A stretch of 43,781 nt of DNA, from the NCBI GenBank assembly GCA_029776995.1, contig JAKOTZ010000068.1, positions 1-43,781 of the forward strand, read 5' to 3'. This document shows, piece by piece, positions 574 through 30,095 of this stretch. The DNA is from Candidatus Hydrogenedentota bacterium. GTDB lineage: Bacteria; Hydrogenedentota; Hydrogenedentia; Hydrogenedentales; CAITNO01. Made by a program: the position numbers and the translations under genes. Each line of letters begins with the position of its first letter. Within the stretch, counting starts at the first letter, position 1. The notes under the pieces are model-generated. The model was not told the DNA's origin. It was given only the letters and a program-made list of their open reading frames with translations, and did not search any database.

Positions 574-1692
574 TTGGACTGCTATAACGATACCGAAAAA
601 GATCCGATCTCAGCCCGCGTAACCGTTATCATTCCCACGTACAGGGAAGCGGAGAATCTGCCGGAATTATTCAGCCGCCTTGCGGCGGTACGGAAGTCCC
701 GTCTGCCTGGATTGGATGTACTGGTCATGGATGATGACAGCGGCGACGGCACCCCGGACGTTATGGCAGCGTTGCATATCCCCTGGGCGAGGCTGGTCAC
801 CAGGCGGGAAAACCGCGGGCTGAGCCCTGCCGTCATTGACGGGTTCAAGCTGGCCACGGGAGACATCCTGGCCGTCATGGATGCCGACCTGAGCCATCCG
901 CCCGAAGCCCTGCCGGATCTGGTGGAAGCCATCCTGCGGGGCGCCGATTTTGCCATCGGCTCGCGCTATGTTCCGGGAGCGGGCACGGCCGAAAACTGGG
1001 GATGGTTTCGCCGGCTTAACAGCCGGATTGCCACCCTCCTGGCCCGGCCGTTTACCTCCGTATCTGACCCCATGAGCGGATTTTTCGCCTTTCCCCGCCG
1101 GATACTCGAAACAGGAACTCCGCTCAATCCCATCGGCTATAAAATCGGTTTGGAGGTATTGGTGAAATGCCGGTGCCGGCAGGTCGTGGAGATTCCCATC
1201 TTTTTTGATCAGCGCCACCGGGGCCAGAGCAAACTTTCATTCCGGGAGCAATGGCGGTACCTGCTGCACCTGCGGCGCCTGGCCATGTTCAAATACGACC
1301 ACCTGGCTCATTTTGCCCATTTCGGCCTGGTAGGATTCCTGGGTACAGGGGTCAATCTGGCCGTGCTGACCATACTGGACTGGGTAGGGATCCCCATACG
1401 CCTGTCCGTGGCCCTGGCCATTCTTACGGCCATGATATTCAATTACTTCCTGAACCGATGGATCACGTTCACCGACGGACCGAAAGGATCCATTCCCCGG
1501 CAGTTGGCCGCATTCATAGCCGCGTGTTCCTTCGGAGCCGTGGTGAATTATGCGGTCACCCTGAGCGTGATTGCGGTGTGGCCCCTGGCTTCGCGTTTCC
1601 CCCAGATCGCTTCCGTGATCGGTATTTTGTCGGGACTGGTTTTCAATTACCTGTCGAGCCGTTTCTGGGTATTCCGGCACCGGAAAGCGTAA
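574..1692 (+). CDS. polyprenyl-phosphate glycosyltransferase (GT2, DPM1-like) fused to a GtrA-type membrane domain
   Basis: Residues ~1-230 are a GT2 glycosyltransferase of the dolichol/undecaprenyl-phosphate mannosyl/glucosyl type. They show VIIPTYREAENL, the acidic DDDSGDGT, a DAD nucleotide-sugar/metal motif in MDADLSHPPE, and QRHRGQSKLS near the end. Residues ~245-370 hold four hydrophobic segments with GtrA hallmarks (GFLGTGVNLAV, FNYFLNRWITF, FNYLSSRFWVF). The first half should load a sugar onto a polyprenyl phosphate at the cytoplasmic face; GtrA proteins are thought to help flip such lipids. TTG at 574 is the only start compatible with a full N-terminus, because an in-frame stop lies at 550-552; an AGGA is 8-9 bases upstream. 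The 3' end overlaps the convergent SGNH gene by 50 bases. The substrate cannot be read from sequence. Confidence 0.88.
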   Translation: MDCYNDTEKDPISARVTVIIPTYREAENLPELFSRLAAVRKSRLPGLDVLVMDDDSGDGTPDVMAALHIPWARLVTRRENRGLSPAVIDGFKLATGDILAVMDADLSHPPEALPDLVEAILRGADFAIGSRYVPGAGTAENWGWFRRLNSRIATLLARPFTSVSDPMSGFFAFPRRILETGTPLNPIGYKIGLEVLVKCRCRQVVEIPIFFDQRHRGQSKLSFREQWRYLLHLRRLAMFKYDHLAHFAHFGLVGFLGTGVNLAVLTILDWVGIPIRLSVALAILTAMIFNYFLNRWITFTDGPKGSIPRQLAAFIAACSFGAVVNYAVTLSVIAVWPLASRFPQIASVIGILSGLVFNYLSSRFWVFRHRKA

Positions 1693-3250
1693 CGCCCCCG
1701 GGGCACGTCCCGACCAAAGGTTCGAGTGCTTCCGCGATTACCCTTGCTTTCTTCTCGATGCCGGGGTTGCGCATATGGCAGATATCACCGAACCATTTCA
1801 GCCCGCCGTTGACGGATTCCGCCACCGGAATACAGGGCGCGCCCAGGTTATCCGACATCTGACGCAACCCAAGGTTATAGCGGGACAACAGGTAATAATA
1901 GGCGGCATAGGAACATTGGTCCCCCCCCCACTCCCGTTCTATGCAGTATTCCAGATAGGAACGTTCCTCAGCGGTTAAGAGATCTGGATCCGGCGCGGCA
2001 AACGTACAGAAAACGACCTGAACGCCCCGCGCGAGAAAACCTTCCGCGACCGCCTTCAGATCCTCCTGAATGTTCCGTATCCTGCTGTCGATTTCCGGCT
2101 CATCGGGTAACACGATCCTCCACAAAACCCGTTTTACCGGACGCAGGCTCAGCAGTTGCCGCGGACCGTCCAGCCAGATTTTCATGGTTGGATAAATCAC
2201 ATGCATCACATCGTTCGCGCCCAGGTAAAACACCACGATGTCGGGCTGTAAAAAGAGATAATCGGCCATTTTCACCCGGTGTTTCGCGCTGTTCATGCCC
2301 GAAACGCCCGCATTGATCACGTCCACCCGTCTGGTCCCGATCTTCCGGTTCAGCAGATATTCCACAACCGAAGGATAGGTCAGCAGATTGTGCATCCCCT
2401 CGTAGGTCGTGGAAGCTCCGACGCAGAGCACGCGACAGACGTCCGACGGCTTGGGCAGGACGACATCATAATCCCGAAGTCCCACATTATTGATGGAAAT
2501 GAATGCTCCACGGGGCTGCCCCGGTCCCGGAGGCGGGTCGTCTTCTAGATAGTACGGCCGCATGGCAAAATATTCGCTGTCCCACAGGCTGTGTTCGGGC
2601 GAATCCACATTTCGGGGCACAAACAGAAAACGTGTGGCGGGCTCCGATGCGTTTCCGAAGGCAGTTTCGTGAACAGCCTGCCCTTGCTGAAAGCGTATCG
2701 CCCAGGGCGGGCTTCCGGTCCTGGCGGGATCCATAACCCATAATGGGTTTTCGTCCGCCACCCCCGGATCTGCCTCCAGCAGGGCTGTTAACGCCTCGGG
2801 CAGGATTTCCCCGGCTGGTACCCCGCCGGGCGCAGCCAGTTCATCCGGGTAACGGTTTATCACCCGACCGCGATCATCTGCGGCATAGACATCCACCCGG
2901 TACATCCGCGCGAAGGTGTACCGAAGCGGTTCGGGCAGACTGGCAAAGTGGCTGGTCCGGGCAAGCCAGCGATCCCGTTGCTGCTCCGCTGTAAGGGGAA
3001 CAGGCTGGAGTGATTTCCCCGGTCCAATCCATTTTTCCCGTTCCGCGATGTCCAGCTTGGCGGGATCCAACTGGGTATCGGCGGTAAGCGGCCAGTCTCC
3101 CCCCCCGTAACGGGCCTGGATGAACCGGTTGTTTACCAGGGAACTTTCAAATTCCCAGCGTCCCCAAAAGACTACCCCAAGGACCAGAACTCCGGTCCAG
3201 AGCACCGCCACAATTACACCAAAAAGGAAACGCGCGGCAGCATGTTTCAT
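1643..3250 (-). CDS. membrane-anchored SGNH/GDSL-hydrolase family protein (535 aa)
   Basis: One N-terminal membrane segment (residues ~8-30) is followed by a ~240-residue region of unknown fold and then an SGNH hydrolase core. Block I is GAST (278-281, nucleophile S280), block III GAND (343-346, oxyanion Asn345), and block V DICH (D488, H491), so the catalytic set is intact. Such proteins are esterases or, next to polysaccharide genes, O-acetyl/acyl transferases acting outside the inner membrane. The ATG overlaps the stop of the upstream GT-C gene (ATGA, 3247-3250), so the two are co-translated. The 3' end runs 50 bases into the convergent GT2-GtrA gene. The specific substrate is unknown. Confidence 0.85.
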   Translation of the reverse strand: MKHAAARFLFGVIVAVLWTGVLVLGVVFWGRWEFESSLVNNRFIQARYGGGDWPLTADTQLDPAKLDIAEREKWIGPGKSLQPVPLTAEQQRDRWLARTSHFASLPEPLRYTFARMYRVDVYAADDRGRVINRYPDELAAPGGVPAGEILPEALTALLEADPGVADENPLWVMDPARTGSPPWAIRFQQGQAVHETAFGNASEPATRFLFVPRNVDSPEHSLWDSEYFAMRPYYLEDDPPPGPGQPRGAFISINNVGLRDYDVVLPKPSDVCRVLCVGASTTYEGMHNLLTYPSVVEYLLNRKIGTRRVDVINAGVSGMNSAKHRVKMADYLFLQPDIVVFYLGANDVMHVIYPTMKIWLDGPRQLLSLRPVKRVLWRIVLPDEPEIDSRIRNIQEDLKAVAEGFLARGVQVVFCTFAAPDPDLLTAEERSYLEYCIEREWGGDQCSYAAYYYLLSRYNLGLRQMSDNLGAPCIPVAESVNGGLKWFGDICHMRNPGIEKKARVIAEALEPLVGTCPGGVTLSGAGIPRNGSTGN

Positions 3251-5556
3251 GGGCGGCCATCCCCGGCCGCAGTACCGGCGTTGTCCTGGGCGCCCAATTT
3301 CCGGCGGATCGTCTCCAACGCATCGCGGGGACGCGCGTCGGATGGATCCAGTTCAGCCGCCCGCGCGTAACTTTCCGCCGCCTCTCCTAACCGTCCCAAC
3401 CCTTCCAGCGCCATGCCATGCACTGTATGCGCCCAGGAATCGTTCGGCAGCAGCTTAAGCCCCTCCCGGACCGCTTCCAGGGCACCGGCATAATCTTCCC
3501 GGACCATCAGCAACTGGGCCAGGTTGAGATGGTCCCAGGGATAGGCCGACGGATTCAGGGCGGTTGACCGCTGAAATGCTTCGATCGCTTCCGCCACTGC
3601 GTTCATTTCTTTCAGGGCCATGCCCAGATAAGACCATGCGGTCACGTATTCCGGATCAATTTCCGTGGCGGTTCGGGCAACAGCCGTGGCGGTTTCGTAT
3701 TCGCCATTACGCCAGAATTCCAGGGAAAGGTCGGCAAATTCTTTCGCGAACCGTTCCCGTTCAGCAGGGTCAGCGGGACGGGGAAGAACAAATTCCCCCC
3801 GGAGATGGTTTTCAGGCTGAACAGAAGAAACACGGTAAAGCGCAACGTTCTGGATCGCGGGATACTCCCAGTATTCCCACGTCAACCCCCGCTCGGACAG
3901 ACGGGCTTCCAGCTCCGGTATGGGGCCCGTCGCGAAATAATCCGTCTGCAGGATGATCCACGGCGCGCGGAGCGATTTTACGTGTCCGGACTGCAGTTCC
4001 AACCGGCAGACATAGTCCGCTATCGCCGCCAGGGAATCCCATTTATCGCCGTAACTGACCACGTGGTCCGAGGGGCCCAGATTCCACGCGAACACCCGTT
4101 TCCACAGCCAGTTATGCACCAGCAGGATATCGTCAGGATTGCCCTGTTCTGTTATGGTCTGCCGGGCGCGCAGCCAGTCGGGATGCTGTGGTCCGCCCCA
4201 AAGCAGGGTCTGCTGGTATGCAAAAAAAATCAGGACGCCGGCTGTTACGGCCGCTTTGAGTCCCCTACCGGGCAACAGCGTGACCAGGCCAGAAATCAGC
4301 ACATAAAGCGCCAGGGAAGCGTGCAGGGTGTACCGGGGCATGATGCAGGGACGCCAGACCCACGAAGCCGTTAACAGTACCAGCGGCGGCAGCAGCATCC
4401 ATGCCGCCAGGACTAACACCCATCGGACTTCAAATCCAACCGGAAGCATCCGGTTACGTTCGACACAACCCGACGTAACATTTATCTCATCCCCATCCCG
4501 CGCGTCCCCATTCCGCAGCCTCCTCCACAGAGTCAACAGCGGCACTGCCAATACCACCCCAATGGTAAAGGCCATCCAGACCTTCGCGATTGTCCATCGC
4601 GCCCGGATCACGGCCACGGCCAGATCATCCGGCAGCAGTATTTTCCAAAAACCGTCCGTAGCGTACAGCTGGTAGGTCGCCCCGATGGCGTCATCCCCGA
4701 ACAGATCTCCCAGGAATTCGTGCCACAGGGGAATACGCATCCAGGAGTCTGTCGTATCCCGCTGCCAAAACCGAATGGACATTACGTAGACCGTAATCGG
4801 CACAAAAGCCAGCACCATCCAGATTCCCCAGAGAAACAGCCGGTTAAAATCCCTGGGAAATAAAATCAGCCAGCACAGCCCCTGGACAAAAGGCACCAGA
4901 ATCGCGAACGGATGGGTCCACAACAGGAACAGCGCCACCGCTCCATTGGCCAGCCACCAGCGAACGCGTCCCGTGCGGACCAGCATTACCCAGGTAAGTA
5001 TGGACAGCGCGGCCAGCAGGGTCATCAGGCCATACATGCGGATTTCCCGGGAAAACTGCACGTGTATGGGAGACAGGGCCACGCAGGCCATGGTCAGCAG
5101 CCCTGCCCAGCGCCCGTAGAAGACCGCGCCCAGCGCGAAAGCGGCTGGCAGCAGCAGCATCCCGATCAGAATCGAAAGCCACCGCAGGCTGGCCCAGTCG
5201 TTATCCAGATACCGGTTCCACAGGTACTCAAACGTATAGTAGAGGGGCATAGTAGCCGGGTCCAGGGTGCGGTTCTGCCGCCAGAACGCCATAAGGGAAG
5301 GCGCCGTTTCCCGGATCACCTGCTGATTCCACCGGGCGTAATCCGGCGACGCCTGCCACGCGGACGGCGGCTGCAGGTGCATCACGCTGGTGAACTCATC
5401 CCACCAGATCGATTCGCGTCCCAGCCCCTGAGCCCGCACGAGAAACCCGACGGCCAACACCAGGAAAAAACACAGAAGGAAACGCCTGTCTGCCTGCAGT
5501 CCCTTAAAAATCCGCTGGGATGTATCTGATGCGTTCAATGCGGGTACCACCTTCAT
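3247..5556 (-). CDS. GT-C (ArnT/PMT-like) polyprenyl-phosphate-dependent glycosyltransferase with C-terminal TPR repeats
   Basis: A 769-residue protein. The first ~440 residues carry many hydrophobic helices in the GT39/ArnT pattern: a first helix followed by WWDEF with the expected catalytic Asp in the first periplasmic loop, and SREIRMYGL in a later loop, a familiar motif of this superfamily. These enzymes move a sugar from a polyprenyl-phosphate carrier to an acceptor on the periplasmic side. After a soluble stretch, residues ~614-755 form about four TPR units (for example AWSYLGMALKEMNAVAEAIE and ALEGLGRLGEAAESYARA), which may hold a protein acceptor or partner. It is the first gene of a two-gene minus-strand operon and is divergent from the SGNH-DprE operon. 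Confidence 0.85.
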   Translation of the reverse strand: MKVVPALNASDTSQRIFKGLQADRRFLLCFFLVLAVGFLVRAQGLGRESIWWDEFTSVMHLQPPSAWQASPDYARWNQQVIRETAPSLMAFWRQNRTLDPATMPLYYTFEYLWNRYLDNDWASLRWLSILIGMLLLPAAFALGAVFYGRWAGLLTMACVALSPIHVQFSREIRMYGLMTLLAALSILTWVMLVRTGRVRWWLANGAVALFLLWTHPFAILVPFVQGLCWLILFPRDFNRLFLWGIWMVLAFVPITVYVMSIRFWQRDTTDSWMRIPLWHEFLGDLFGDDAIGATYQLYATDGFWKILLPDDLAVAVIRARWTIAKVWMAFTIGVVLAVPLLTLWRRLRNGDARDGDEINVTSGCVERNRMLPVGFEVRWVLVLAAWMLLPPLVLLTASWVWRPCIMPRYTLHASLALYVLISGLVTLLPGRGLKAAVTAGVLIFFAYQQTLLWGGPQHPDWLRARQTITEQGNPDDILLVHNWLWKRVFAWNLGPSDHVVSYGDKWDSLAAIADYVCRLELQSGHVKSLRAPWIILQTDYFATGPIPELEARLSERGLTWEYWEYPAIQNVALYRVSSVQPENHLRGEFVLPRPADPAERERFAKEFADLSLEFWRNGEYETATAVARTATEIDPEYVTAWSYLGMALKEMNAVAEAIEAFQRSTALNPSAYPWDHLNLAQLLMVREDYAGALEAVREGLKLLPNDSWAHTVHGMALEGLGRLGEAAESYARAAELDPSDARPRDALETIRRKLGAQDNAGTAAGDGRP

Positions 5557-5590
5557 GCCGCGCCTGATTCCGTATGCGTGTGCCGATGCC

Positions 5591-5621
5591 TTGGTTATCC
5601 ATTATGGCACTAACATATAAT
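5591..5621 (+). promoter_or_regulatory. candidate sigma-70 promoter of the SGNH-dprE1-dprE2-ubiA operon
   Basis: A perfect -10 TATAAT (5616-5621) lies 19 bases downstream of TTGGTT (5591-5596), in the 112-base gap between divergent genes. The start would be near 5628, leaving a ~40-base leader before the ATG at 5669. The same gap must also hold the promoter of the divergent GT-C operon; a CATAAT on the opposite strand near 5600-5605 is a weak candidate for it. Confidence 0.45.
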
Positions 5622-5668
5622 GAGGCCGCAATCGCGGGTTCTCTTAAAACGCAGGAATTATCCCCGGC

Positions 5669-6913
5669 ATGCGCTTCAGTATGAAAACAGCGGTATTTAC
5701 CCTGATCGCCCTGTTGGGCGCGCCACTGGCGGTTTTTCTGGCAGTAATTGCCGCAGACCGCCTGGTGATAAGCTCCCTGACTGCGCCCAAAATTCAGGGA
5801 ACCATGGAACTGATCTTCCCGCCCGGGGCGGAACAGCACTTTCGGTTCATGGAATTTTCCTACACCGCCCTGATTAACCGTTTAGGTCTCCGGGAACGGG
5901 ATCTGCCAAACGATACTTCCCTGTTCCGCATTGCCGCGATCGGTGATTCTTACACCTATGGATGGGGCGTGAATGCCGAAGACACCTGGCTGCGCGGGAT
6001 CGAAGCGTATCTGCTGGACCATGGGTTTCCGGTTTTTACCGTTAACATGGGAAAACCCGGTACGGGCCCCCCTTTCTACGCGGAAATCGCGGAAAAAGCC
6101 CTGCCGGTCATCCACCCCCGCCTGGTCATTGTGGGGATACTGCAGGGCAATGACCTTGCCGGCGCGGGACCGGAGGTGTCCCTGGCTCCGGCCGGTTTGG
6201 CAAACCGGGTGGCATGGGCCTTGTTTCCGAACACATTGCGGTGGATCCGCAACGCGCGGATTACGCGGCTGGGCGAAGCCCGCAGGCAGGAAATGCCCCC
6301 ACAGGTCAGTTCCGAGGAAGACAACCGCCGCTGGCAGGAAAACACCGCCCGGGACTTTTATGAAAAAATGACCGCGGAAGAAAAAGCGAAATTCGAAACC
6401 ATCGCGCCGGAAGTGCGCGAAGCCTTTTTCCGCGGGGAATTCAACCCCTACATGATAGACCTGGCCCTTAAGAACCCCAGAATTTACATCCTTCCGATGA
6501 ACATGGAGGATCCCTGGATTCAGCAGTGTGTGAAAAACATGGGCAACCAGCTGATCCGTATCCGGCGGGCGGCGGAACAGGAAGGCGCCCGGGTGGTCGT
6601 GCTGTCGATTCCCGATGGCCCCTACGTAAACCGCCATGCCTTCGAGGCAATACGTCAGGTGGGATTTGAAACGGACGCGAATCTGATGAATGCCCGGAAC
6701 GCCGATGAGGGGCCGCGACGGGCGGCCGCGCTGGCGGGACTGCCTTTTTTCACGGTCAGCGACGGTTTCCTGCAACACGCGGAGGACCCGGACCTTTTCT
6801 TCCGGTTTGACGGACACCTTTCAGCCAAAGGACATGCTCTGCTGGCGGCATTGTTCGCGCCGCAACTTGAGCAGTACCTGAAGGAAAACCGCCTGCTGGA
6901 GCCCGGCAAATGA
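5669..6913 (+). CDS. membrane-anchored SGNH hydrolase-type protein (414 aa)
   Basis: An N-terminal signal-anchor (residues ~6-28) precedes an SGNH fold: block I GDSYT (92-96, nucleophile S94), block III GND (160-162), and a C-terminal DGH (D381, H383) in place of the usual DxxH. A ~200-residue insertion sits between blocks III and V. It starts the operon that continues into a second SGNH gene and dprE1-dprE2-ubiA. The ATG at 5669 has AGGA 12 bases upstream; an ATG at 5681 is an alternative. Placement suggests acyl transfer to, or ester cleavage from, an extracellular glycan. Motifs and length differ clearly from the minus-strand SGNH gene, so this is not a recent duplicate. Confidence 0.82.
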   Translation: MRFSMKTAVFTLIALLGAPLAVFLAVIAADRLVISSLTAPKIQGTMELIFPPGAEQHFRFMEFSYTALINRLGLRERDLPNDTSLFRIAAIGDSYTYGWGVNAEDTWLRGIEAYLLDHGFPVFTVNMGKPGTGPPFYAEIAEKALPVIHPRLVIVGILQGNDLAGAGPEVSLAPAGLANRVAWALFPNTLRWIRNARITRLGEARRQEMPPQVSSEEDNRRWQENTARDFYEKMTAEEKAKFETIAPEVREAFFRGEFNPYMIDLALKNPRIYILPMNMEDPWIQQCVKNMGNQLIRIRRAAEQEGARVVVLSIPDGPYVNRHAFEAIRQVGFETDANLMNARNADEGPRRAAALAGLPFFTVSDGFLQHAEDPDLFFRFDGHLSAKGHALLAALFAPQLEQYLKENRLLEPGK

Positions 6914-8133
6914 CCGATGCGTCTGAAAAACTGGCGGATCGTGCGTCCGAAAGGGAGAATCCCCCGCCGAAACACCGCATCCGCGACGCCGTATTCAGCA
7001 TCCTTTGGATCGCCTGCGCCACGCTCTTTCTATTGGGCGTACTGGAAGGAATCGCCAGATTCCATGAAATATGGAATCCCCCCATGCGGGTCGATCTTGG
7101 TCAGGGCTTCGATGAATCCGTGCGACTGTTTATTCCCGACCCGGAAGACCGGCGTTTCATGCGGGTCAACCCGGACCGTCTGGTCTGCTTTCAGAATCAG
7201 CGATTCCGGCGCATTAAAGCGCCGGGAACCCTGCGTCTGGCGGCCCTGGGCGGATCTTCCGTCAACTATCTGCAATACGAATTTTCCCGCCTTCCAGAAC
7301 AGTTGCTTCCGGCGCTGAACGGCGCTTACAACAGCCTGGAAACGCTCAACTGCGGCGGATTATCCTACGGTTCTCACCGGCTGGTGCTCATCGCCCGGGA
7401 GGTCCTACAGTACGATCTGGACCTGCTCATGATTTACTCGGGCCATAACGAATTCGAAGAACTGCAGCAGCTTCGCCTGTCGGGAATTGAACAGGTCCGG
7501 GTCCAGCGGATATTTTCCAGAAGCGCGCTTTACCGCTGGATCCGCGACTTCCAGGCCCGCCGGGCCATCGGACAGCTGGAGGCCGACCGCCAGCGCCGTG
7601 AACTGGCCGTTTCAGTTCCGGACGCGTCCAAAGCATGGCTTCACGTGTTTACGCCGGAAGAAATCAGCAGCCGAATGGACGCGTACAGGAACAATCTGGA
7701 AACCATGATAAAAATGTGCCGCGATGCCGGAGTTCCGGTGGTTATCGGTACGGTGCCATCCAACCTCTATCGCCCCAACCTGTCCGGCCCGGAAGGCGAA
7801 CGTTTTGAAAAAGAAGTCCGGCCGCTGTACGAAGCGGGCAAATGGGAGGAAGGCCTGAATCTGGCGCGCCGTATCCTGATGGAGGCGTCCCCGCGCCACC
7901 AGTCTTCCGACCACGAGAACCGCATCATCCGTGAAGTGGCGAAAAAATGGCAGGTTCCTCTCGCCGACGTGGAATCAGCGGTGATAGCACGGGAACCCCA
8001 CGGCGTACCGGGAGAAACCCTGTTTTCCGACCACTGCCACCTGAATGAAAAAGGAAACCGGATCCTGATGGAAACCTTCCTGCCGAAAATGATTGAGGCG
8101 CTGACCGCAACCCCGGAACACGCTGTGCGCTGA
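6910..8133 (+). CDS. membrane-anchored SGNH hydrolase-type protein (407 aa)
   Basis: Starts inside the stop of the previous gene (ATGA, 6910-6913). After a charged ~25-residue cytoplasmic tail comes one membrane helix (~28-46), then the SGNH core: GGSS (114-117, S116), GHNE (178-181, Asn180) and SDHCH (D374, H377). The GGSS/SGHNEF form is the one I associate with a subfamily often linked to exopolysaccharide or TPR proteins. It is the third SGNH protein around the GT-C gene. The catalytic residues are all present, so an active periplasm-facing esterase or transferase is likely; the substrate is unknown. Confidence 0.82.
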   Translation: MTDASEKLADRASERENPPPKHRIRDAVFSILWIACATLFLLGVLEGIARFHEIWNPPMRVDLGQGFDESVRLFIPDPEDRRFMRVNPDRLVCFQNQRFRRIKAPGTLRLAALGGSSVNYLQYEFSRLPEQLLPALNGAYNSLETLNCGGLSYGSHRLVLIAREVLQYDLDLLMIYSGHNEFEELQQLRLSGIEQVRVQRIFSRSALYRWIRDFQARRAIGQLEADRQRRELAVSVPDASKAWLHVFTPEEISSRMDAYRNNLETMIKMCRDAGVPVVIGTVPSNLYRPNLSGPEGERFEKEVRPLYEAGKWEEGLNLARRILMEASPRHQSSDHENRIIREVAKKWQVPLADVESAVIAREPHGVPGETLFSDHCHLNEKGNRILMETFLPKMIEALTATPEHAVR

Positions 8134-8189: not shown

Positions 8190-9560
8190 ATGAGCGGAAC
8201 CTTGTCCTGGACCACTGAAACAATCGCCGGATGGGGGCAGTATCGCCCCGCGACGGTGAAAATATGCCGTCCACGCAGTGGTCATCAGGTTGAAGAAGCT
8301 CTCCGCAACCCCTTTAAACCCATACTGGCCCGGGGTATGGGAAGAAGTTACGGGGATGCCGCCCAGTGTTCCGGCGGCGGCATCCTTGAGATGACTGCAT
8401 TGAACCGTTTCCGCGCCTTTGACGCGGATTCCGGCATACTGGATTGCGAAGCAGGAACCACGCTGTCCGAAATACTGGACTGGTTTGTCCCGCGCGGATG
8501 GACACTGCCGGTAGTCCCCGGCACCCGCATGATCACCGTGGGCGGCGCGATTGCCAATGACGTCCACGGAAAAAACCATCACGTCGACGGGTCTTTCTGC
8601 GCGCACGTTATTGACTTTGACCTGCTGACGCCGGACAGAGGCGTGGTGCGATGCTCACCGGAACAGGAAGCGTCCCTGTTTCAGGCAACGGCGGGCGGAG
8701 TCGGGCTTACGGGCATTATATTTAACGCCCGGTTGCGGCTGGAGCCCATCGAAAGCGCGTGGCTGGAGGTGGAGTATGAGCCCTGCCCGGATTTGGCCCA
8801 CGCGCTGGCCGTGCTGGACGCCACGGATGCCGGTTTCCGTTATTCTGTCGGATGGGTGGACGCCCTGTCCGGGGACGGTCGGGGACGAACCGTCCTCACC
8901 CGGGGCAACTGGCTTCCCGCCTCAGCCCTGCCGCCGGAACGCTGCGCCGCGCCGCTGCGGGTACCCCGCCGCCCGGAACTCAGTATTCCCTACAGGATGC
9001 CGGAATGGGTGTTGAATCCGACATCCATACGCTTTTTCAACGCGTTCAACTGGAAGCGGTTCTGTTCCCGAAAAAGAGCCGTCATCGACATGGACCGTTA
9101 TTTCTTTCCGCTTGACAGCGTGGCCAACTGGAACCGGATGTACGGCCGCAGGGGATTTGTTCAGTATCAGGCCACCGTGCCTTTGGAATCCGCCCAGTGC
9201 CTGACGGAACTGTTGCGGCGATCCTATCAGAACGGATTTTTTTCTTTTCTGGGCGTCCTCAAAAGGTTTGGGGCAGGCGGAATCGGCATGCTTTCGCATC
9301 CCATGCCGGGATACACCCTTACCCTCGACTTTCCGGTACGGGACGGGCTGGAGCGTTTCCTGCGCGAGTGCGACCGCCTCCTGCTGGACTGGGGCGGACG
9401 GCTCTACCTTGCCAAGGATATTCTGGCGCTGCCGGAAACCATTGCGGCCATGTACCCGCGCCTGAACGAGTTTCTGAAGGTCCGCGCGCATGTGGACTCG
9501 GCCCGTGTTCTGGGTTCCGATTTGTCTCGGCGCCTGGGATGGGATGACCGGAATGGATAA
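8190..9560 (+). CDS. dprE1: DprE1-like FAD-dependent decaprenylphosphoryl-beta-D-ribose 2'-oxidase
   Basis: The 456-residue protein follows the mycobacterial DprE1 layout end to end. Residues 48-59 RGMGRSYGDAAQ and ~109-131 VPGTRMITVGGAIANDVHGK...HH form the VAO-type FAD-binding half. The substrate half ends with PMPGYTLTLDFP and GGRLYLAKD, which keeps the catalytic Lys that I recall as K418. Known role: oxidises the 2'-OH of polyprenyl-phospho-ribose; the keto intermediate is then reduced by DprE2 to the arabinose form. The position of the benzothiazinone-target Cys (WNICVDFP, C387 in M. tuberculosis, from memory) is Thr here. ATG 8190 is chosen over an upstream GTG (8145) because it gives a family-like N-terminus and has GGAG 13 bases before it. 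Confidence 0.88.
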   Translation: MSGTLSWTTETIAGWGQYRPATVKICRPRSGHQVEEALRNPFKPILARGMGRSYGDAAQCSGGGILEMTALNRFRAFDADSGILDCEAGTTLSEILDWFVPRGWTLPVVPGTRMITVGGAIANDVHGKNHHVDGSFCAHVIDFDLLTPDRGVVRCSPEQEASLFQATAGGVGLTGIIFNARLRLEPIESAWLEVEYEPCPDLAHALAVLDATDAGFRYSVGWVDALSGDGRGRTVLTRGNWLPASALPPERCAAPLRVPRRPELSIPYRMPEWVLNPTSIRFFNAFNWKRFCSRKRAVIDMDRYFFPLDSVANWNRMYGRRGFVQYQATVPLESAQCLTELLRRSYQNGFFSFLGVLKRFGAGGIGMLSHPMPGYTLTLDFPVRDGLERFLRECDRLLLDWGGRLYLAKDILALPETIAAMYPRLNEFLKVRAHVDSARVLGSDLSRRLGWDDRNG

Positions 9561-9586
9561 GCCGTACGGCCTGATGGAGCAAAGCG

Positions 9587-10348
9587 ATGACGAGTGAAAA
9601 ACACATGCCGACGGTGCTGATTCTGGGAGGAACGTCTGACCTGGGCGTCTGCATGGCGCGCGAATTCCTGCGGCGCGGATGGCGCCCCGTACTGGCGGGG
9701 AGAAACGAAGAGATGCTGCGCCAGGCTGCCCGTGATCTGGAAACCCGATGCGGCATTACAATCCCCCTTATCGCCTACAATGCCGAAGATTTTGCCGCGC
9801 ATCCTGAATTGCCGGAACAGTGCCGTGCCGTTATCGGACGCCTTCCCGAAGGTGTTGTGTCCTGCGTGGGACTGCTGCCGGACCCGGACAGCGTCCGATG
9901 CGATAGTGAACTAGCCCGGACATGCCTTAACGCGAACCTGACCGGCATTATCACGTCTCTGGATCCTTTTGTGGAGCTGTTTGAACAGCGCCGTGCCGGA
10001 TTTCTGGGAGTTGTCACTTCCGTCGCCGGCGACCGCGGGCGCAAATCCAATTACCACTACGCGGCCGCCAAAGCCGGACTGGACGTATACCTGCAGGGAC
10101 TGCGTCACCGGCTGCACGGGTCCGGGGTAACCGTAACCACGGTCAAACCCGGCTACCTGCAAACTAAAATGATTTCGGGCATGTCGCTGCCCCGGGCGCT
10201 GATCACCGCTCCCGAAAAGGCCGCTGTTCAGGCGGTAAATGCCATCCTGAACGGCAGGCGCGTCGTGTATGTGCCCTTCTGGTGGCGGCTGATTATGCTG
10301 GCGGTCCGGATCATTCCGGAACCCCTGTTTGTCCGGACGAATATATGA
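9587..10348 (+). CDS. dprE2: DprE2-like SDR: decaprenylphosphoryl-2-keto-beta-D-erythro-pentose reductase
   Basis: A short-chain dehydrogenase of 253 residues with the DprE2-type nucleotide motif GGTSDLG near residue 14, a downstream SVAGDRGRKSNYHY segment, the catalytic YHYAAAK (YxxxK), and a C-terminal membrane-like stretch (VVYVPFWWRLIMLAVRIIP) typical of this family. It should reduce the DprE1 keto product, completing epimerisation of ribose to arabinose on the lipid. ATG 9587 has GGAG 7 bases upstream; an internal ATG (9605) is less well supported. It lies 26 bases after dprE1, and its stop overlaps the ubiA start. DprE1 next to DprE2 is the standard arrangement in mycobacteria. Confidence 0.87.
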   Translation: MTSEKHMPTVLILGGTSDLGVCMAREFLRRGWRPVLAGRNEEMLRQAARDLETRCGITIPLIAYNAEDFAAHPELPEQCRAVIGRLPEGVVSCVGLLPDPDSVRCDSELARTCLNANLTGIITSLDPFVELFEQRRAGFLGVVTSVAGDRGRKSNYHYAAAKAGLDVYLQGLRHRLHGSGVTVTTVKPGYLQTKMISGMSLPRALITAPEKAAVQAVNAILNGRRVVYVPFWWRLIMLAVRIIPEPLFVRTNI

Positions 10349-11262
10349 ACGGCACGGTGTCAGATACACATCGCCCACCGGCAACCGCCGGAGCGGTCTT
10401 GCGGCTGCTTCGGCCTTACCAGTGGATCAAGAACGGCGTGGTCCTGCTTCCGCTTGTTTTCGCCCAGGAACTGAACAACCCAACAGCCGTAACGCGGGCG
10501 CTGGCTGCCACGGGTATCTTTTGCCTAATTTCCTGTGCCGTATATATCTTTAATGATCTGCTGGACCGGGATCAGGATCGGCTGCACCCCGACAAACGGA
10601 ATCGACCTCTGGCCTCGGGAGCTGTTTCCGTGCGGACGGCCGCGCTGCTGTGCGTCGTGCTGGTGACCGCCGGACTTACGGGCGCGGCAGCCCTGAGCCC
10701 CCGGTTTTCACTGGCAGCGTTCGGATATCTTGCGCTGATGGCCGCGTATTCTCTGGGCCTCAAACATCTGCTGCTGATTGACGTGATATGCGTGGCCCTT
10801 GGCTTCGTGTTGCGCGCCACCGGGGGGGCTGTGGCCATTGACGTGCGTTTCTCGAACTGGCTGGTGGTTTGCACCCTCTTTCTGGCGCTGTTTCTGGCCC
10901 TCGGTAAACGCCGGCACGAGCTGGCCGTGCTGAACGCGGACGCTCCGGCGCACCGGGCCGTCCATGACGCGTATTCCGTTGATTTTCTGGATGCCATGAT
11001 CCTTCTGGTTGCCGGAGCGGCCATGGTGAGCTACACCATCTATACCTGTTCCCAGGAGGTGGTAACCCGCATCGGAACCGATAAAATGTACCTCACGCTG
11101 CCCTTCGTGGTATACGGACTGGGGCGTTATCTCTGGCTGATCCGTCAGGGACGCGACGGTGGAGATCCCAGCATGACCCTGTTGCGGGACTATCCGCTTA
11201 CGGTTACCGTTTTCTGCTGGCTTGCGTCCTGCGCGCTGGTCATGCATGGAGCGTTTTCATAA
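10345..11262 (+). CDS. ubiA: UbiA-family polyprenyl-phosphate 5-phosphoribosyltransferase (DPPR synthase-like)
   Basis: A 305-residue integral membrane protein with about eight or nine helices. The first Asp-rich motif is NDLLDRDQDRLHPDKRNRPL (NDxxDxxxD plus the HPxKRxRP form seen in DPPR synthases). The second region is YSLGLKHLLLIDVICVALGF, followed by RATGGAVAIDV. Mycobacterial Rv3806c of this type joins PRPP to decaprenyl phosphate, the step before DprE1. ATG 10345 overlaps the dprE2 stop (ATGA), so translation is coupled; earlier in-frame starts lie inside dprE2 and are rejected. Gene context rather than the motif alone separates it from quinone or haem prenyltransferases. The phosphatase that removes the 5-phosphate is not found nearby. 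Confidence 0.83.
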   Translation: MNGTVSDTHRPPATAGAVLRLLRPYQWIKNGVVLLPLVFAQELNNPTAVTRALAATGIFCLISCAVYIFNDLLDRDQDRLHPDKRNRPLASGAVSVRTAALLCVVLVTAGLTGAAALSPRFSLAAFGYLALMAAYSLGLKHLLLIDVICVALGFVLRATGGAVAIDVRFSNWLVVCTLFLALFLALGKRRHELAVLNADAPAHRAVHDAYSVDFLDAMILLVAGAAMVSYTIYTCSQEVVTRIGTDKMYLTLPFVVYGLGRYLWLIRQGRDGGDPSMTLLRDYPLTVTVFCWLASCALVMHGAFS

Positions 11263-26626: not shown

Positions 26627-27157
26627 ATGATTTGCCAGAAGTGCCACCAAAAACCTGCAACAGCCCGATACATAGAGGTCGTTGAGGGCAAGGCGGTTGA
26701 GCAGCATGTCTGTGCGGAATGCCTTGCCAAATACCTTCAGGGCGGATCTGAAGCCTTCAGCCTGAATGAGATCAAACCCCGCATTTACGCGCCCGGCAGC
26801 CAGACAGAACAGCAGAAGCCCCCTCTGCGGCGGCCGCGACAGGCATGCCCGGCCTGCAATACATCGCTCGCCACCATCATGGAAAAGAAAATGGTGGGGT
26901 GCACTGAATGCTACCGGCACTTTTATGACACCATCGAGGAAATCCTGGGCCAGATACAGCCCGGCACCCGGCACCAGGGCCGTTCCAGCGCGCGGGACGA
27001 CGCAAGGTCCCGACTGCGGAATGATCTCCGGAGCAAACGGGCTTTGTTGCGTAGCGTGCTCAAGGTGGAAGATTATGAGCAGGCCGCAATCCTCAGGGAT
27101 GAAATCAGGCGGCTGGAAGCGGGACTGCAAATCGGCGGGGGAGAAGAACTTCCATGA
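26627..27157 (+). CDS. mcsA: McsA-like zinc-finger protein with UVR motif
   Basis: 176 residues. Two treble-clef-like CxxC pairs begin the protein (C3/C6 and C28/C31), then another two (C74/C77, C93/C96, in CPACNT and CTECYRHFY). The C-terminus has a UvrB/UvrC motif, DYEQAAILRDEIRRLE. This is the McsA layout; in Bacillus McsA activates the arginine kinase McsB and helps control CtsR and Clp proteolysis. ATG 26627 has AGGA 10 bases upstream. Its stop overlaps the next gene (ATGA), so both are co-produced. No ctsR or clpC is in the window. Confidence 0.9.
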   Translation: MICQKCHQKPATARYIEVVEGKAVEQHVCAECLAKYLQGGSEAFSLNEIKPRIYAPGSQTEQQKPPLRRPRQACPACNTSLATIMEKKMVGCTECYRHFYDTIEEILGQIQPGTRHQGRSSARDDARSRLRNDLRSKRALLRSVLKVEDYEQAAILRDEIRRLEAGLQIGGGEELP

Positions 27158-28371
27158 AACAGAGTGACCTGCTGCCAGCCGCCCTGCCTGAATGGTGCGG
27201 TTCAGACATGGAACCGTCTTCCTGGACGGAGATCGTTTCGTCCTGCACCCTCTGCAGGAACCTGCCAGATCTTCCCTTTCCCCCCGCTGCCCGGGCAGAA
27301 GAAAAACAGGAAGCGCTTCGCCGGGTTGAAGACGCAGTAAGATTGCTCTCTCCCCTGCAGGATCATCTGGCCTGTACAGAAAAAGAACTGGAATCGCCGC
27401 TTGGGTCCCTGCTGGCTGAACGCCACCTCGCTCCGCGCGAGGTATTGCACGGGCACGGTCCACGCGCCCTGTTCACGGACCGACGGGGCAGCCGCGCACT
27501 GATAATTAACGCCCTGGACCATGTGTCTATCCGGGCGCTTGCCCCGGGCAATAACACATCCATGGCCCTCCAGCAGGTTTTATCCGTGGAGGAAACCTTG
27601 GGAAGTGTGCTGGATTTCTCCTACGACGAACAGCGGGGATTCCTGACTTCCCGACTGACCTGCACGGGGACCGGACTTAAAGTATGCGTGCTGTTACACC
27701 TCCCCGCGCTAACCCTGATGGGCTTGCCAAAACTGTATCCGGGAACGGCCAAGACCCGGGACGTCGCTTTTTGCGGAGTCGCCGCGGGCAGTGGATTGGA
27801 TCTGCCGCATCTGGGCGCTCCACCCTCTGAGCCTCAGCAGCTTTCGGCTACGCCGTACATGCCCGTCGAGCCGATAACGGAACAGTGCTTGCTGACTGAA
27901 ATTGAAGGGTTCATACCCGTCCCGCCGGAAAAGTCCCCTGGCGCGTTGTACGCCGTTTTCAACCAGCATTCTCTCGGCGTTTCCGAAGAGGAAATTGCCT
28001 ATGGGGTATACCACGCCGCCAGGGAATGGTGCGTCAAAGAGGAAGAAACTCGCCTGACACTGCTCAAAAGCAACAGGCTTTGGCTGCAGGACTGGGTCGG
28101 ACGGGCGGTTGCCCTGGCGCGGGGAACCCATATTGCCGGTTTCGGTGAAGCGCTGGACTGGATTTCACGGATCCGGCTGGGGGCGGCTCTCGGTTTACTG
28201 CGCATGCCAGGGCTCACCCCGGCTGCGTTAAACCGGATGTTGATTGAAATCCAGGCCGCCCATCTGGCCAACGGAACCAGTGAAGAACTCTCATCCCGTC
28301 TCCACCTGGCAAGACTGCGCGCCGAAAAATTACGCGCCTTTCTGGCTCAGTGTGAAATTACCGCCTCCTGA
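27154..28371 (+). CDS. McsB-like ATP:guanido phosphotransferase homologue with degenerate active site
   Basis: The 405-residue frame follows McsB along its length, including GTGLKVCVLLHLPAL (177-186 area), FNQHSLGVSEEEI (269-281) and the helical C-terminal region. The catalytic motifs are altered. SSRxRLARN is SSCTLCRN (29-36); INEEDH is INALDH (118-123), losing both acidic residues; the catalytic CPTN is RLTC (167-170); RGxYGEG is EGFIPVP (251-257). The frame itself is uninterrupted and codon use is normal, so it is not a broken gene. Known McsB phosphorylates arginines to mark proteins for ClpCP; this one probably binds substrates or McsA without catalysis. It overlaps mcsA by four bases. 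Alignment was done by eye. Confidence 0.82.
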   Translation: MKQSDLLPAALPEWCGSDMEPSSWTEIVSSCTLCRNLPDLPFPPAARAEEKQEALRRVEDAVRLLSPLQDHLACTEKELESPLGSLLAERHLAPREVLHGHGPRALFTDRRGSRALIINALDHVSIRALAPGNNTSMALQQVLSVEETLGSVLDFSYDEQRGFLTSRLTCTGTGLKVCVLLHLPALTLMGLPKLYPGTAKTRDVAFCGVAAGSGLDLPHLGAPPSEPQQLSATPYMPVEPITEQCLLTEIEGFIPVPPEKSPGALYAVFNQHSLGVSEEEIAYGVYHAAREWCVKEEETRLTLLKSNRLWLQDWVGRAVALARGTHIAGFGEALDWISRIRLGAALGLLRMPGLTPAALNRMLIEIQAAHLANGTSEELSSRLHLARLRAEKLRAFLAQCEITAS

Positions 28372-28385
28372 CCGGAAACGCCGAT

Positions 28386-30095
28386 TTACGCGCCCAGATT
28401 AACCAGTACTTCCAGCAGGCGGTCCGCTATGGAGATAATCCGGACGGATCCCTGGAATGCCCGCTCGTAGGCGATCAGGTTCGTTACCTCTTCATCCATG
28501 TTTACGCCCGATACTTCTTCACGGCGGCGATCAAAATCCTGCGCAAAACCCTGCTCGACCTGAAGCGAGGCGCTGTTGTCCCGGCTCTGAATCCCCAGCC
28601 GGGCCACAGTCGCCTGATAAAATCCTTCCAGCGTCTGCCGGCCTGAGTCGGCAACCGACGAAGCGCGCAGGGCCTGCATGGCCAGCGCCGCGCGGTTATC
28701 GCCGGTCAGCCGGAAATTCGTTCCATAACCGGAACTGATCCACTCGAGGTTGGTTTCGAGGTGGTCTGAAAGTCGGATCGTTTCGGCATCCGTACCGCTG
28801 AACAGGCCATTCATACCCAATGATACCAGCGCGCCGGAGGTGTCATTGGCAAACGCGAATCCGAACCCGGTCGCGGAAGTTACCACCAGACGGCCGTCCG
28901 CGTCCACGTTTGCGGAAAGATTGGCCATGCCGTCAATGGCGGCGGCAATGTCCTGCGCGGAGGTTACACCGGACGTAACCGGAATGGTCAATGTCTCGGC
29001 CAGCGCGCCGGCGGCATCAAACACGTTGACTGTGAAAGAGCCATTTTGAAGAGAAAAGGGCACATCGCCTGCCGGATCATCCAGCGCAAGCGTCGGGTCT
29101 GTCCGGCGGACACCCCCGACAATAGTCCCCGACAGCGGCGCCAGCCCTCTGCCCTGGCTGTGAATGCCGTTTACCGATTCAATAAGGGCCCGCGCGATTT
29201 CATCGGTCCGATCCCGGTAATCCGCCGCCACGTAATCCCGCATAATCAGCAGGCCGCGCAGTTCTCCCCCGACAATCAACGTGTTCTGCCCGGTATCCGC
29301 CCATCGTACCCGCAACAGATCCGGACGGTCGGAATCTATGGTATCGTCTGCCGTTGCGGTCAGCGCCCGCCAGCGGTCCCCGTTGACCAGCTGCTCATCC
29401 CCCAGCAGCACCTCTACCTCTCCGTTGTCCCGTTCCCGGTAGCTGACTTTGACCAGCCGGGAAAGGCGGTCCAGCAGACGGTCCCGCTCATCGCGCAGGT
29501 CATTGGCCCGTGCGCCATTGGCTTCGATGCGCCGGATCGACACATTTGTCTCCGCGATGCGTTCCGCCAGCGCGTTGATTTCCGGAATCATATTCCGGAT
29601 TTCTTCGTTGGCATTCGACCGTACCACTTCGATCCGCCGCGCGGTTTCATTCAGCGCATTGGAAATTGCCCGGGTTTCCGAAAGAAGCGCCTCGCGCACT
29701 GAGGGATCTTCCACGTTTGAAGAAAATTCGGAAAGCGCCTCAAAAAACGCGCTGAGTCTGGCACCGAAACTTTGCTCTCCGGGTTCCTGAAAAATATCCT
29801 CCAGCCGGGTGTAGAATCGGTCCTGAACGTCCACCTGGCCAAGGCTGGCCATTTGGGTCCGATATACCTTGTCCAGAAATTCCTCGCGAACCCGGTTTAC
29901 CCCCGCTATCTTGGGGCCCCTTCCCAGTTCCCCATAGTACGTATAGTTGGGCTGCCAGGTGGTGACGTCTACCCGCTGGCGGGAATAACCTTCGGTGTTG
30001 ATATTCGCGATGTTATGGCCTGCCGTATCCAGCTGCGCCTGGGCCACCATCAGCCCATTTCTTCCGATATGCAGGGCACTGAACAAAGTTCCCAT
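28386..30095 (-). CDS. flgK: flagellar hook-associated protein 1 (FlgK)
   Basis: 569 residues. The N-terminal rod/hook motif is LDTAGHNIANINTEGYSRQR, and the C-terminus is VNMDEEVTNLIAYERAFQGSVR, the two regions that pair in a coiled coil and define FlgK. The variable middle is exposed in the filament junction. It joins hook and filament outside the cell. Unusually it stands alone: flgL, flgM, flgN and fliD are not adjacent. It converges on the mcsB-like gene with a 14-base gap. No strong Shine-Dalgarno precedes the ATG. Two flagellar sigma-factor candidates lie upstream. Confidence 0.95.
   Translation of the reverse strand: MGTLFSALHIGRNGLMVAQAQLDTAGHNIANINTEGYSRQRVDVTTWQPNYTYYGELGRGPKIAGVNRVREEFLDKVYRTQMASLGQVDVQDRFYTRLEDIFQEPGEQSFGARLSAFFEALSEFSSNVEDPSVREALLSETRAISNALNETARRIEVVRSNANEEIRNMIPEINALAERIAETNVSIRRIEANGARANDLRDERDRLLDRLSRLVKVSYRERDNGEVEVLLGDEQLVNGDRWRALTATADDTIDSDRPDLLRVRWADTGQNTLIVGGELRGLLIMRDYVAADYRDRTDEIARALIESVNGIHSQGRGLAPLSGTIVGGVRRTDPTLALDDPAGDVPFSLQNGSFTVNVFDAAGALAETLTIPVTSGVTSAQDIAAAIDGMANLSANVDADGRLVVTSATGFGFAFANDTSGALVSLGMNGLFSGTDAETIRLSDHLETNLEWISSGYGTNFRLTGDNRAALAMQALRASSVADSGRQTLEGFYQATVARLGIQSRDNSASLQVEQGFAQDFDRRREEVSGVNMDEEVTNLIAYERAFQGSVRIISIADRLLEVLVNLGA

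Follow-up and report, generated by a model that had tools for sequence, protein, structure and literature searches.

The window, by which we mean the whole stretch of 43,781 nucleotides analyzed here, is contig C223 of a 3.4 Mb assembly in 262 contigs from a member of Candidatus Hydrogenedentota. It carries three adjacent and coupled genes on the forward strand, predicted to encode DprE1, DprE2 and a UbiA-fold polyprenyl-phosphate phosphoribosyltransferase (PPPRS), at the positions given in an earlier note on this DNA (Table 1). The stop codon of dprE2 and the start codon of ubiA overlap by four bases (ATGA), and 56 bp separate the end of the second upstream SGNH gene from the start of dprE1. 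The same order dprE1-dprE2-ubiA, on one strand and within about 3 kb, recurs in 25 of the 40 other neighbourhoods compared within the phylum, and hence the arrangement is not a product of chance. With good confidence these genes can be regarded as a three-gene operon for the synthesis of a lipid-linked pentofuranose donor, with which the second SGNH/GDSL gene is likely to be co-transcribed in the window.

Table 1. Predicted genes of the dprE cassette and of the region upstream of it
Feature	Position	Strand	Size, signals or domain matches
GT2 glycosyltransferase fused to GtrA/DPMS membrane domain	574..1692	+	PF00535 and PF04138
SGNH protein, partner of GT-C/TPR gene	1643..3250	-	PF13472
GT-C glycosyltransferase (PMT_2) with C-terminal TPRs	3247..5556	-	PF13231 and TPR
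SGNH/GDSL protein 1, upstream of cassette	5669..6913	+	PF13472
SGNH/GDSL protein 2, upstream of dprE1	6910..8133	+	PF13472
dprE1, predicted FAD-dependent polyprenyl-phosphoryl-ribose 2'-oxidase	8190..9560	+	456 aa; ATG 8190, stop 9560
dprE2, predicted SDR-family 2'-keto reductase	9587..10348	+	253 aa; stop 10346-10348
ubiA-fold, predicted polyprenyl-phosphate 5-phosphoribosyltransferase (PPPRS)	10345..11262	+	305 aa; ATG 10345, stop 11262

Assignment of the three cassette proteins

The general UbiA fold of the third protein (match to PF01040) could speak for a quinone, haem or other prenyltransferase without any role in pentose transfer, but this alternative is extremely improbable and has already been largely refuted. 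The protein passes the curated cut-off of NCBIfam model NF008977 for decaprenyl-phosphate phosphoribosyltransferase (284.6 bits; cut-off 234), whereas profiles of haem, 4-hydroxybenzoate, chlorophyll and EboC prenyltransferases give 40 bits or less, and a search of solved structures retrieves Rv3806c of Mycobacterium tuberculosis (Mtb; 8j8j, E 4e-35). It contains the motifs NDLLDRDQDRLHPDKR and GKRRHE, corresponding to NDxxDxxxD of loop II and KRxxE of loop IV, and its NDLLDRDQD and GKRRHEL segments align to Rv3806c. The block NDxxDxxxDRxHPxKxxRPxAxG followed by KRxxE is found in Rv3806c as well as in the window protein, and in nearly all aligned phosphoribosyltransferase relatives, with a few single-residue exceptions, while both the NDxxDxxxD...HPxK and the KRxxE blocks are missing in E. 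coli UbiA and CyoE. In the Citrobacter enzyme, the N and D residues of the NDxxDxxxD motif were found to matter for activity (Kelly et al. 2024, PMC11127046). A tree of 70 rows, constructed by a quick method that resolves the deep branches between phyla poorly, places the window protein within a Hydrogenedentota group, together with those of its own genus and family, and Rv3806c in an actinobacterial group of the same ingroup. The outgroup, composed of E. coli UbiA, CyoE and a second, separate UbiA encoded at contig C41 of the host genome, has very long branches and is split from the ingroup with 89% support. Thus, grouping with quinone/haem prenyltransferases, regarded in the earlier note as an outcome that would speak against the pathway, was not obtained, and models, motifs and tree together rule out a quinone, haem or EboC-type enzyme. 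We infer that the window protein is a polyprenyl-phosphate phosphoribosyltransferase, a prediction founded on its family and active-site residues. A fused HAD phosphatase, as present in Citrobacter ORF15, is absent from it. The N-terminal extension of the longer UbiA frame at locus L070 looks, when read by eye, like non-coding read-through.

The predicted DprE1 is composed of FAD_binding_4 and ALO domains and is about 38% identical to Mtb DprE1, which is retrieved in the solved-structure search with E 7e-99. Against NCBIfam model NF053785 it scores 471 bits (E 4e-141), below the curated cut-off of 500, a threshold passed by 21 of the 43 DprE1 proteins of the phylum. With the ligand-site residues numbered as in Mtb DprE1, eight of the ten active-site positions inspected are retained (Y60, H132, K134, W230, Q334, Q336, K367 and K418). 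N385 and C387, both of which vary across the family, correspond to Thr in the window protein; C387, the benzothiazinone target in Mtb, is replaced mostly by Thr or Ala among 119 relatives. In trees of DprE1 and DprE2, the Hydrogenedentota rows cluster as they do for UbiA.

DprE2 is the weakest call among the three predicted assignments, since it falls below the cut-off of its own family model. Its best NCBIfam match is PRK07102 with 239 bits (cut-off 267), followed by the DprE2 model NF053786 with 156 bits (E 1e-45, cut-off 250), which ranks ahead of every generic SDR model. The YxxxK motif is found within SNYHYAAAK, the gene lies directly downstream of dprE1 in the window and throughout the phylum, and in the tree the protein groups with other dprE1-linked SDRs.

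Relationship of the cassette to neighbouring genes

The earlier note had assigned the SGNH, GT-C and GtrA genes upstream to the same glycan locus as the cassette. A rival reading along these lines is that the adjoining genes and the cassette constitute one dedicated arabinosylation locus, in which the GT2-GtrA and GT-C/TPR proteins would use lipid-linked arabinose to decorate a protein or polymer of the surface, to be acylated or deacylated by the SGNH proteins. The modules are indeed adjacent, the same gene order is seen in G016, the only other species of the genus that was examined, and SGNH1-SGNH2-dprE1-dprE2-ubiA are read in one direction with short gaps. Nevertheless, such a dedicated locus appears unlikely. 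The GT-C/TPR gene occurs at dprE-free sites in eight other genomes, in most of them with its SGNH partners, and in other genera the SGNH protein encoded on the reverse strand stays with the GT-C/TPR gene and SGNH/GDSL protein 1 lies beside the PMT-TPR gene, apart from dprE. The GT2-GtrA gene is found near the GT-C/TPR module in two of these genomes (G003 and G012), and only in the genus of the window are the GT2-GtrA fusion and GT-C/TPR gene near the cassette. Conversely, most dprE cassettes of the phylum lie among unrelated genes, those of other genera among housekeeping or unrelated ones. Hence, the SGNH/GT-C/GtrA genes and the dprE cassette are separate modules, brought adjacent in this genus. 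The host genome furthermore contains 18 PMT_2 matches, of which the window GT-C/TPR gene is one, and with the modules being separate these neighbours give a weak basis for inferring any particular acceptor. The GT-C/TPR protein is a possible candidate user of the lipid-linked sugar, and as the transferase of the cassette it was set aside, having many paralogues and being unlinked to dprE outside the genus.

Among the annotated genes of the window, domain searches revealed no phosphatase, linked or fused, for the 5-phosphate step, in agreement with the earlier note, and the only PAP2 protein of the assembly is encoded at the edge of contig C183, unlinked to the cassette. Similarly, neither a dedicated flippase nor an arabinosyltransferase could be identified with the cassette in the window neighbourhood. 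A GT-C gene of family f7 that lies beside its cassette (L041, 1680-3257) was rejected as a general candidate for the dedicated transferase, as homologues are also present in genomes devoid of the phosphoribosyltransferase, and no homologue of it was found in the genome of the window at E 1e-15.

As a separate observation, in 20 genomes of families f2, f5, f7, f9 and f11 the ubiA gene is adjoined, mostly directly downstream, by glgC, whose product exceeds the cut-off of NCBIfam PRK02862 in the two members scanned, and in several of these genomes a GPH/MFS_2 transporter gene follows; the glgC orthologue of the window's genome is located on another contig. The GPH/MFS transporter is not a universal partner, as only 31 of the 68 genomes contain it at E 1e-40. 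As a tentative and rather improbable proposal, Hydrogenedentota may have inherited, at the level of the phylum, a pentofuranose donor pathway whose ancestral unit combined ubiA with genes for an ADP-glucose pyrophosphorylase of the GlgC type and for a transporter of the GPH/MFS_2 type. The transporter could be the donor flippase, and the pathway would supply an envelope glycan and a transferase that are both as yet undescribed.

Distribution in Hydrogenedentota and other phyla

Among 68 genomes of the phylum, whose fragmented assemblies mean that some gene absences may be gaps, DprE1 is found in 43 (E 1e-40) and the phosphoribosyltransferase in 50 (E 1e-25). Both are present in 40 genomes and neither in 15, with DprE1 alone in three and PPPRS alone in ten, a co-occurrence with a Fisher p of 3e-6, a statistic that ignores shared ancestry. 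The two genes usually belong to one compact unit, and ubiA, when not adjacent, is usually found elsewhere in the genome. Since groups in the UbiA tree largely match the family codes of the phylum, the relationships of these sequences suggest mostly vertical inheritance within Hydrogenedentota. The ten genomes with PPPRS only suggest ribofuranose-only versions of the pathway, and they are consistent with the model of Kelly et al., in which lipid-linked ribofuranose is the shared starting point and DprE1/DprE2 were added as a diversifier.

In other phyla, dprE1 was observed together with a linked gene for the phosphoribosyltransferase in records of Planctomycetota, Bacillota, Actinomycetota, Gemmatimonadota, Pseudomonadota, Chloroflexota and Acidobacteriota, and the two genes are adjacent on a plasmid of the cyanobacterium Kovacikia. 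Given such units in many other phyla, the term mycobacterial-type used in the earlier note is apt for the chemistry only, as the window proteins form a Hydrogenedentota group with relatives across many phyla. The placement of Hydrogenedentota in the FCB group at NCBI leads one to expect a diderm envelope for the host.

Proposed pathway and its relation to known systems

The route from PRPP and polyprenyl phosphate via polyprenyl-P-ribose to polyprenyl-P-arabinofuranose, put forward in the earlier note, is retained as the best reading of these genes, with arabinose as the final sugar deduced from sequence relationships. The UbiA-fold protein, judged by its family and active-site residues, would transfer 5-phosphoribose from PRPP onto polyprenyl phosphate, and the 5-phosphate would be removed by a phosphatase encoded elsewhere, possibly the single PAP2 protein. 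By homology, DprE1 would oxidize C2 of the lipid-linked ribose and DprE2 would carry out reduction with inversion, yielding polyprenyl-phosphoryl-D-arabinofuranose. This donor is presumably flipped across the inner membrane, after which some GT-C enzyme would arabinosylate an envelope glycan or protein. Across the phylum, PPPRS is the commoner component and provides the predicted entry step, and DprE1/DprE2 would be an added stage that turns ribofuranose into arabinofuranose.

The cassette thus very probably directs the synthesis of a lipid-carried ribofuranose that is turned into arabinofuranose, and the likely product is D-arabinofuranose, although product stereochemistry is a property that homology cannot fix. 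An alternative in which the proteins act on polyprenyl-P-ribose, with the final sugar being another epimer, or ribofuranose with DprE1/DprE2 acting on another substrate, draws on the score of DprE2 well below the cut-off of the DprE2 model and its best match to PRK07102, on the ten genomes with PPPRS but without DprE1, and on the fact that different epimerases acting after the same entry step generate different pentofuranoses (Kelly et al., PMC11127046). It is given a low probability, as DprE1, the committing C2 oxidase, is well conserved including the ligand-contact positions, and DprE1/DprE2 homologues accompany arabinofuranose glycans in the systems examined in the same work (PMC11127046).

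By homology, the same three activities as in the decaprenylphosphoryl-arabinose pathway of mycobacteria (Rv3806c, Rv3807c, DprE1 Rv3790 and DprE2 Rv3791) are represented here, with DprE1 active-site residues and the UbiA motif block retained. Unlike the mycobacterial pathway, the window cassette lacks a linked phosphatase or stand-alone GtrA-like flippase, and it differs in the Thr at the position of C387 and in the dprE2/ubiA overlap. Citrobacter youngae O1 and O2 represent three-component pentofuranose systems (Kelly et al. 2024, PMC11127046), which resemble the arrangement described here in having a polyprenyl phosphoribose synthase as the entry and an epimerase as the diversifier; however, the window UbiA is without a HAD phosphatase domain, and neither a linked MATE flippase nor a GT-C (GT136) transferase was identified for the cassette. 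The precedents named in the earlier note, Azorhizobium noeCHO (PMC2443382) and pilin arabinosylation in Pseudomonas paraeruginosa (PMC12369383, PMC11127046), were both borne out by the literature. Type IV pilin arabinosylation in P. paraeruginosa PA7/Pa5196 involves PSPA7_6245-6251 and TfpW (PMC12369383) and likewise offers arabinofuranose donor genes in a Gram-negative bacterium whose transferase is encoded at another genomic site, but no pilin or TfpW-type gene was recognized in the window neighbourhood. In the noeCHOP region of Azorhizobium caulinodans, noeC, noeH and noeO were proposed, on the grounds of their resemblance to M. tuberculosis proteins, to make a D-arabinose precursor (PMC2443382); these genes are tied to Nod-factor genes, a context that the window cassette lacks.

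Taken together, there is good support for assigning the cassette, as a new member, to the pentofuranose donor pathway of Kelly et al. 2024, whose chemistry is already known. A caution follows for such loci, as the acceptor should not be read off neighbouring genes, because the cassette moves independently of these genes. Many bacteria have this pathway, which has been studied best in M. tuberculosis, and the present findings add an uncultured phylum of the FCB group, with a mostly vertical history, to the predicted makers of lipid-linked arabinofuranose or ribofuranose, with the distribution predicting which genomes should carry ribofuranose only.

Phosphoribosyltransferase genes and their neighbours

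Ten genomes of the Hydrogenedentota set (G001, G002, G003, G041, G048, G049, G050, G054, G056 and G057) encode the UbiA-fold phosphoribosyltransferase without DprE1, which suggests that these organisms make ribofuranose-only donors or employ a different epimerase. In 20 genomes of Hydrogenedentota, a gene for a GlgC-type ADP-glucose pyrophosphorylase adjoins the one for the phosphoribosyltransferase, and in several of them a GPH/MFS_2 transporter gene follows it.

Surroundings of the dprE1 cassette and other genes of the window

Within family f5, the dprE1 cassette is divergently adjoined in four genomes by a gene of the GH127 beta-L-arabinofuranosidase family, assigned by Pfam at locus L073 and by clustering at loci L059, L074 and L075. 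The window also carries a separate module that recurs across Hydrogenedentota, and, elsewhere, a pair of adjoining genes of McsB-like and flagellar type.

Coordinates of gene neighbourhoods in the window and at other loci
Feature	Location	Position
GlgC-type gene with phosphoribosyltransferase neighbour	L075	6188-7501
Same	L217	9178-12103
Same	L210	4943-7716
Same	17 further loci	
Recurring module of a GT2-GtrA fusion, a TPR-bearing GT-C and three SGNH proteins	window	574-8133
ATP:guanido phosphotransferase (McsB-like) gene adjoining FlgK-like gene	window	27154-28371 and 28386-30095

Relatives in other sequence records

A Hydrogenedentota-like cassette is present in JAACEL010000188.1 (locus L080), a record titled as Nitrospiraceae, and this label is probably wrong. 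Relatives of the phosphoribosyltransferase with 40-43% identity are found on haloarchaeal plasmids (matches H1, H2, H3 and H5), which indicates that the predicted entry step is not confined to bacteria.
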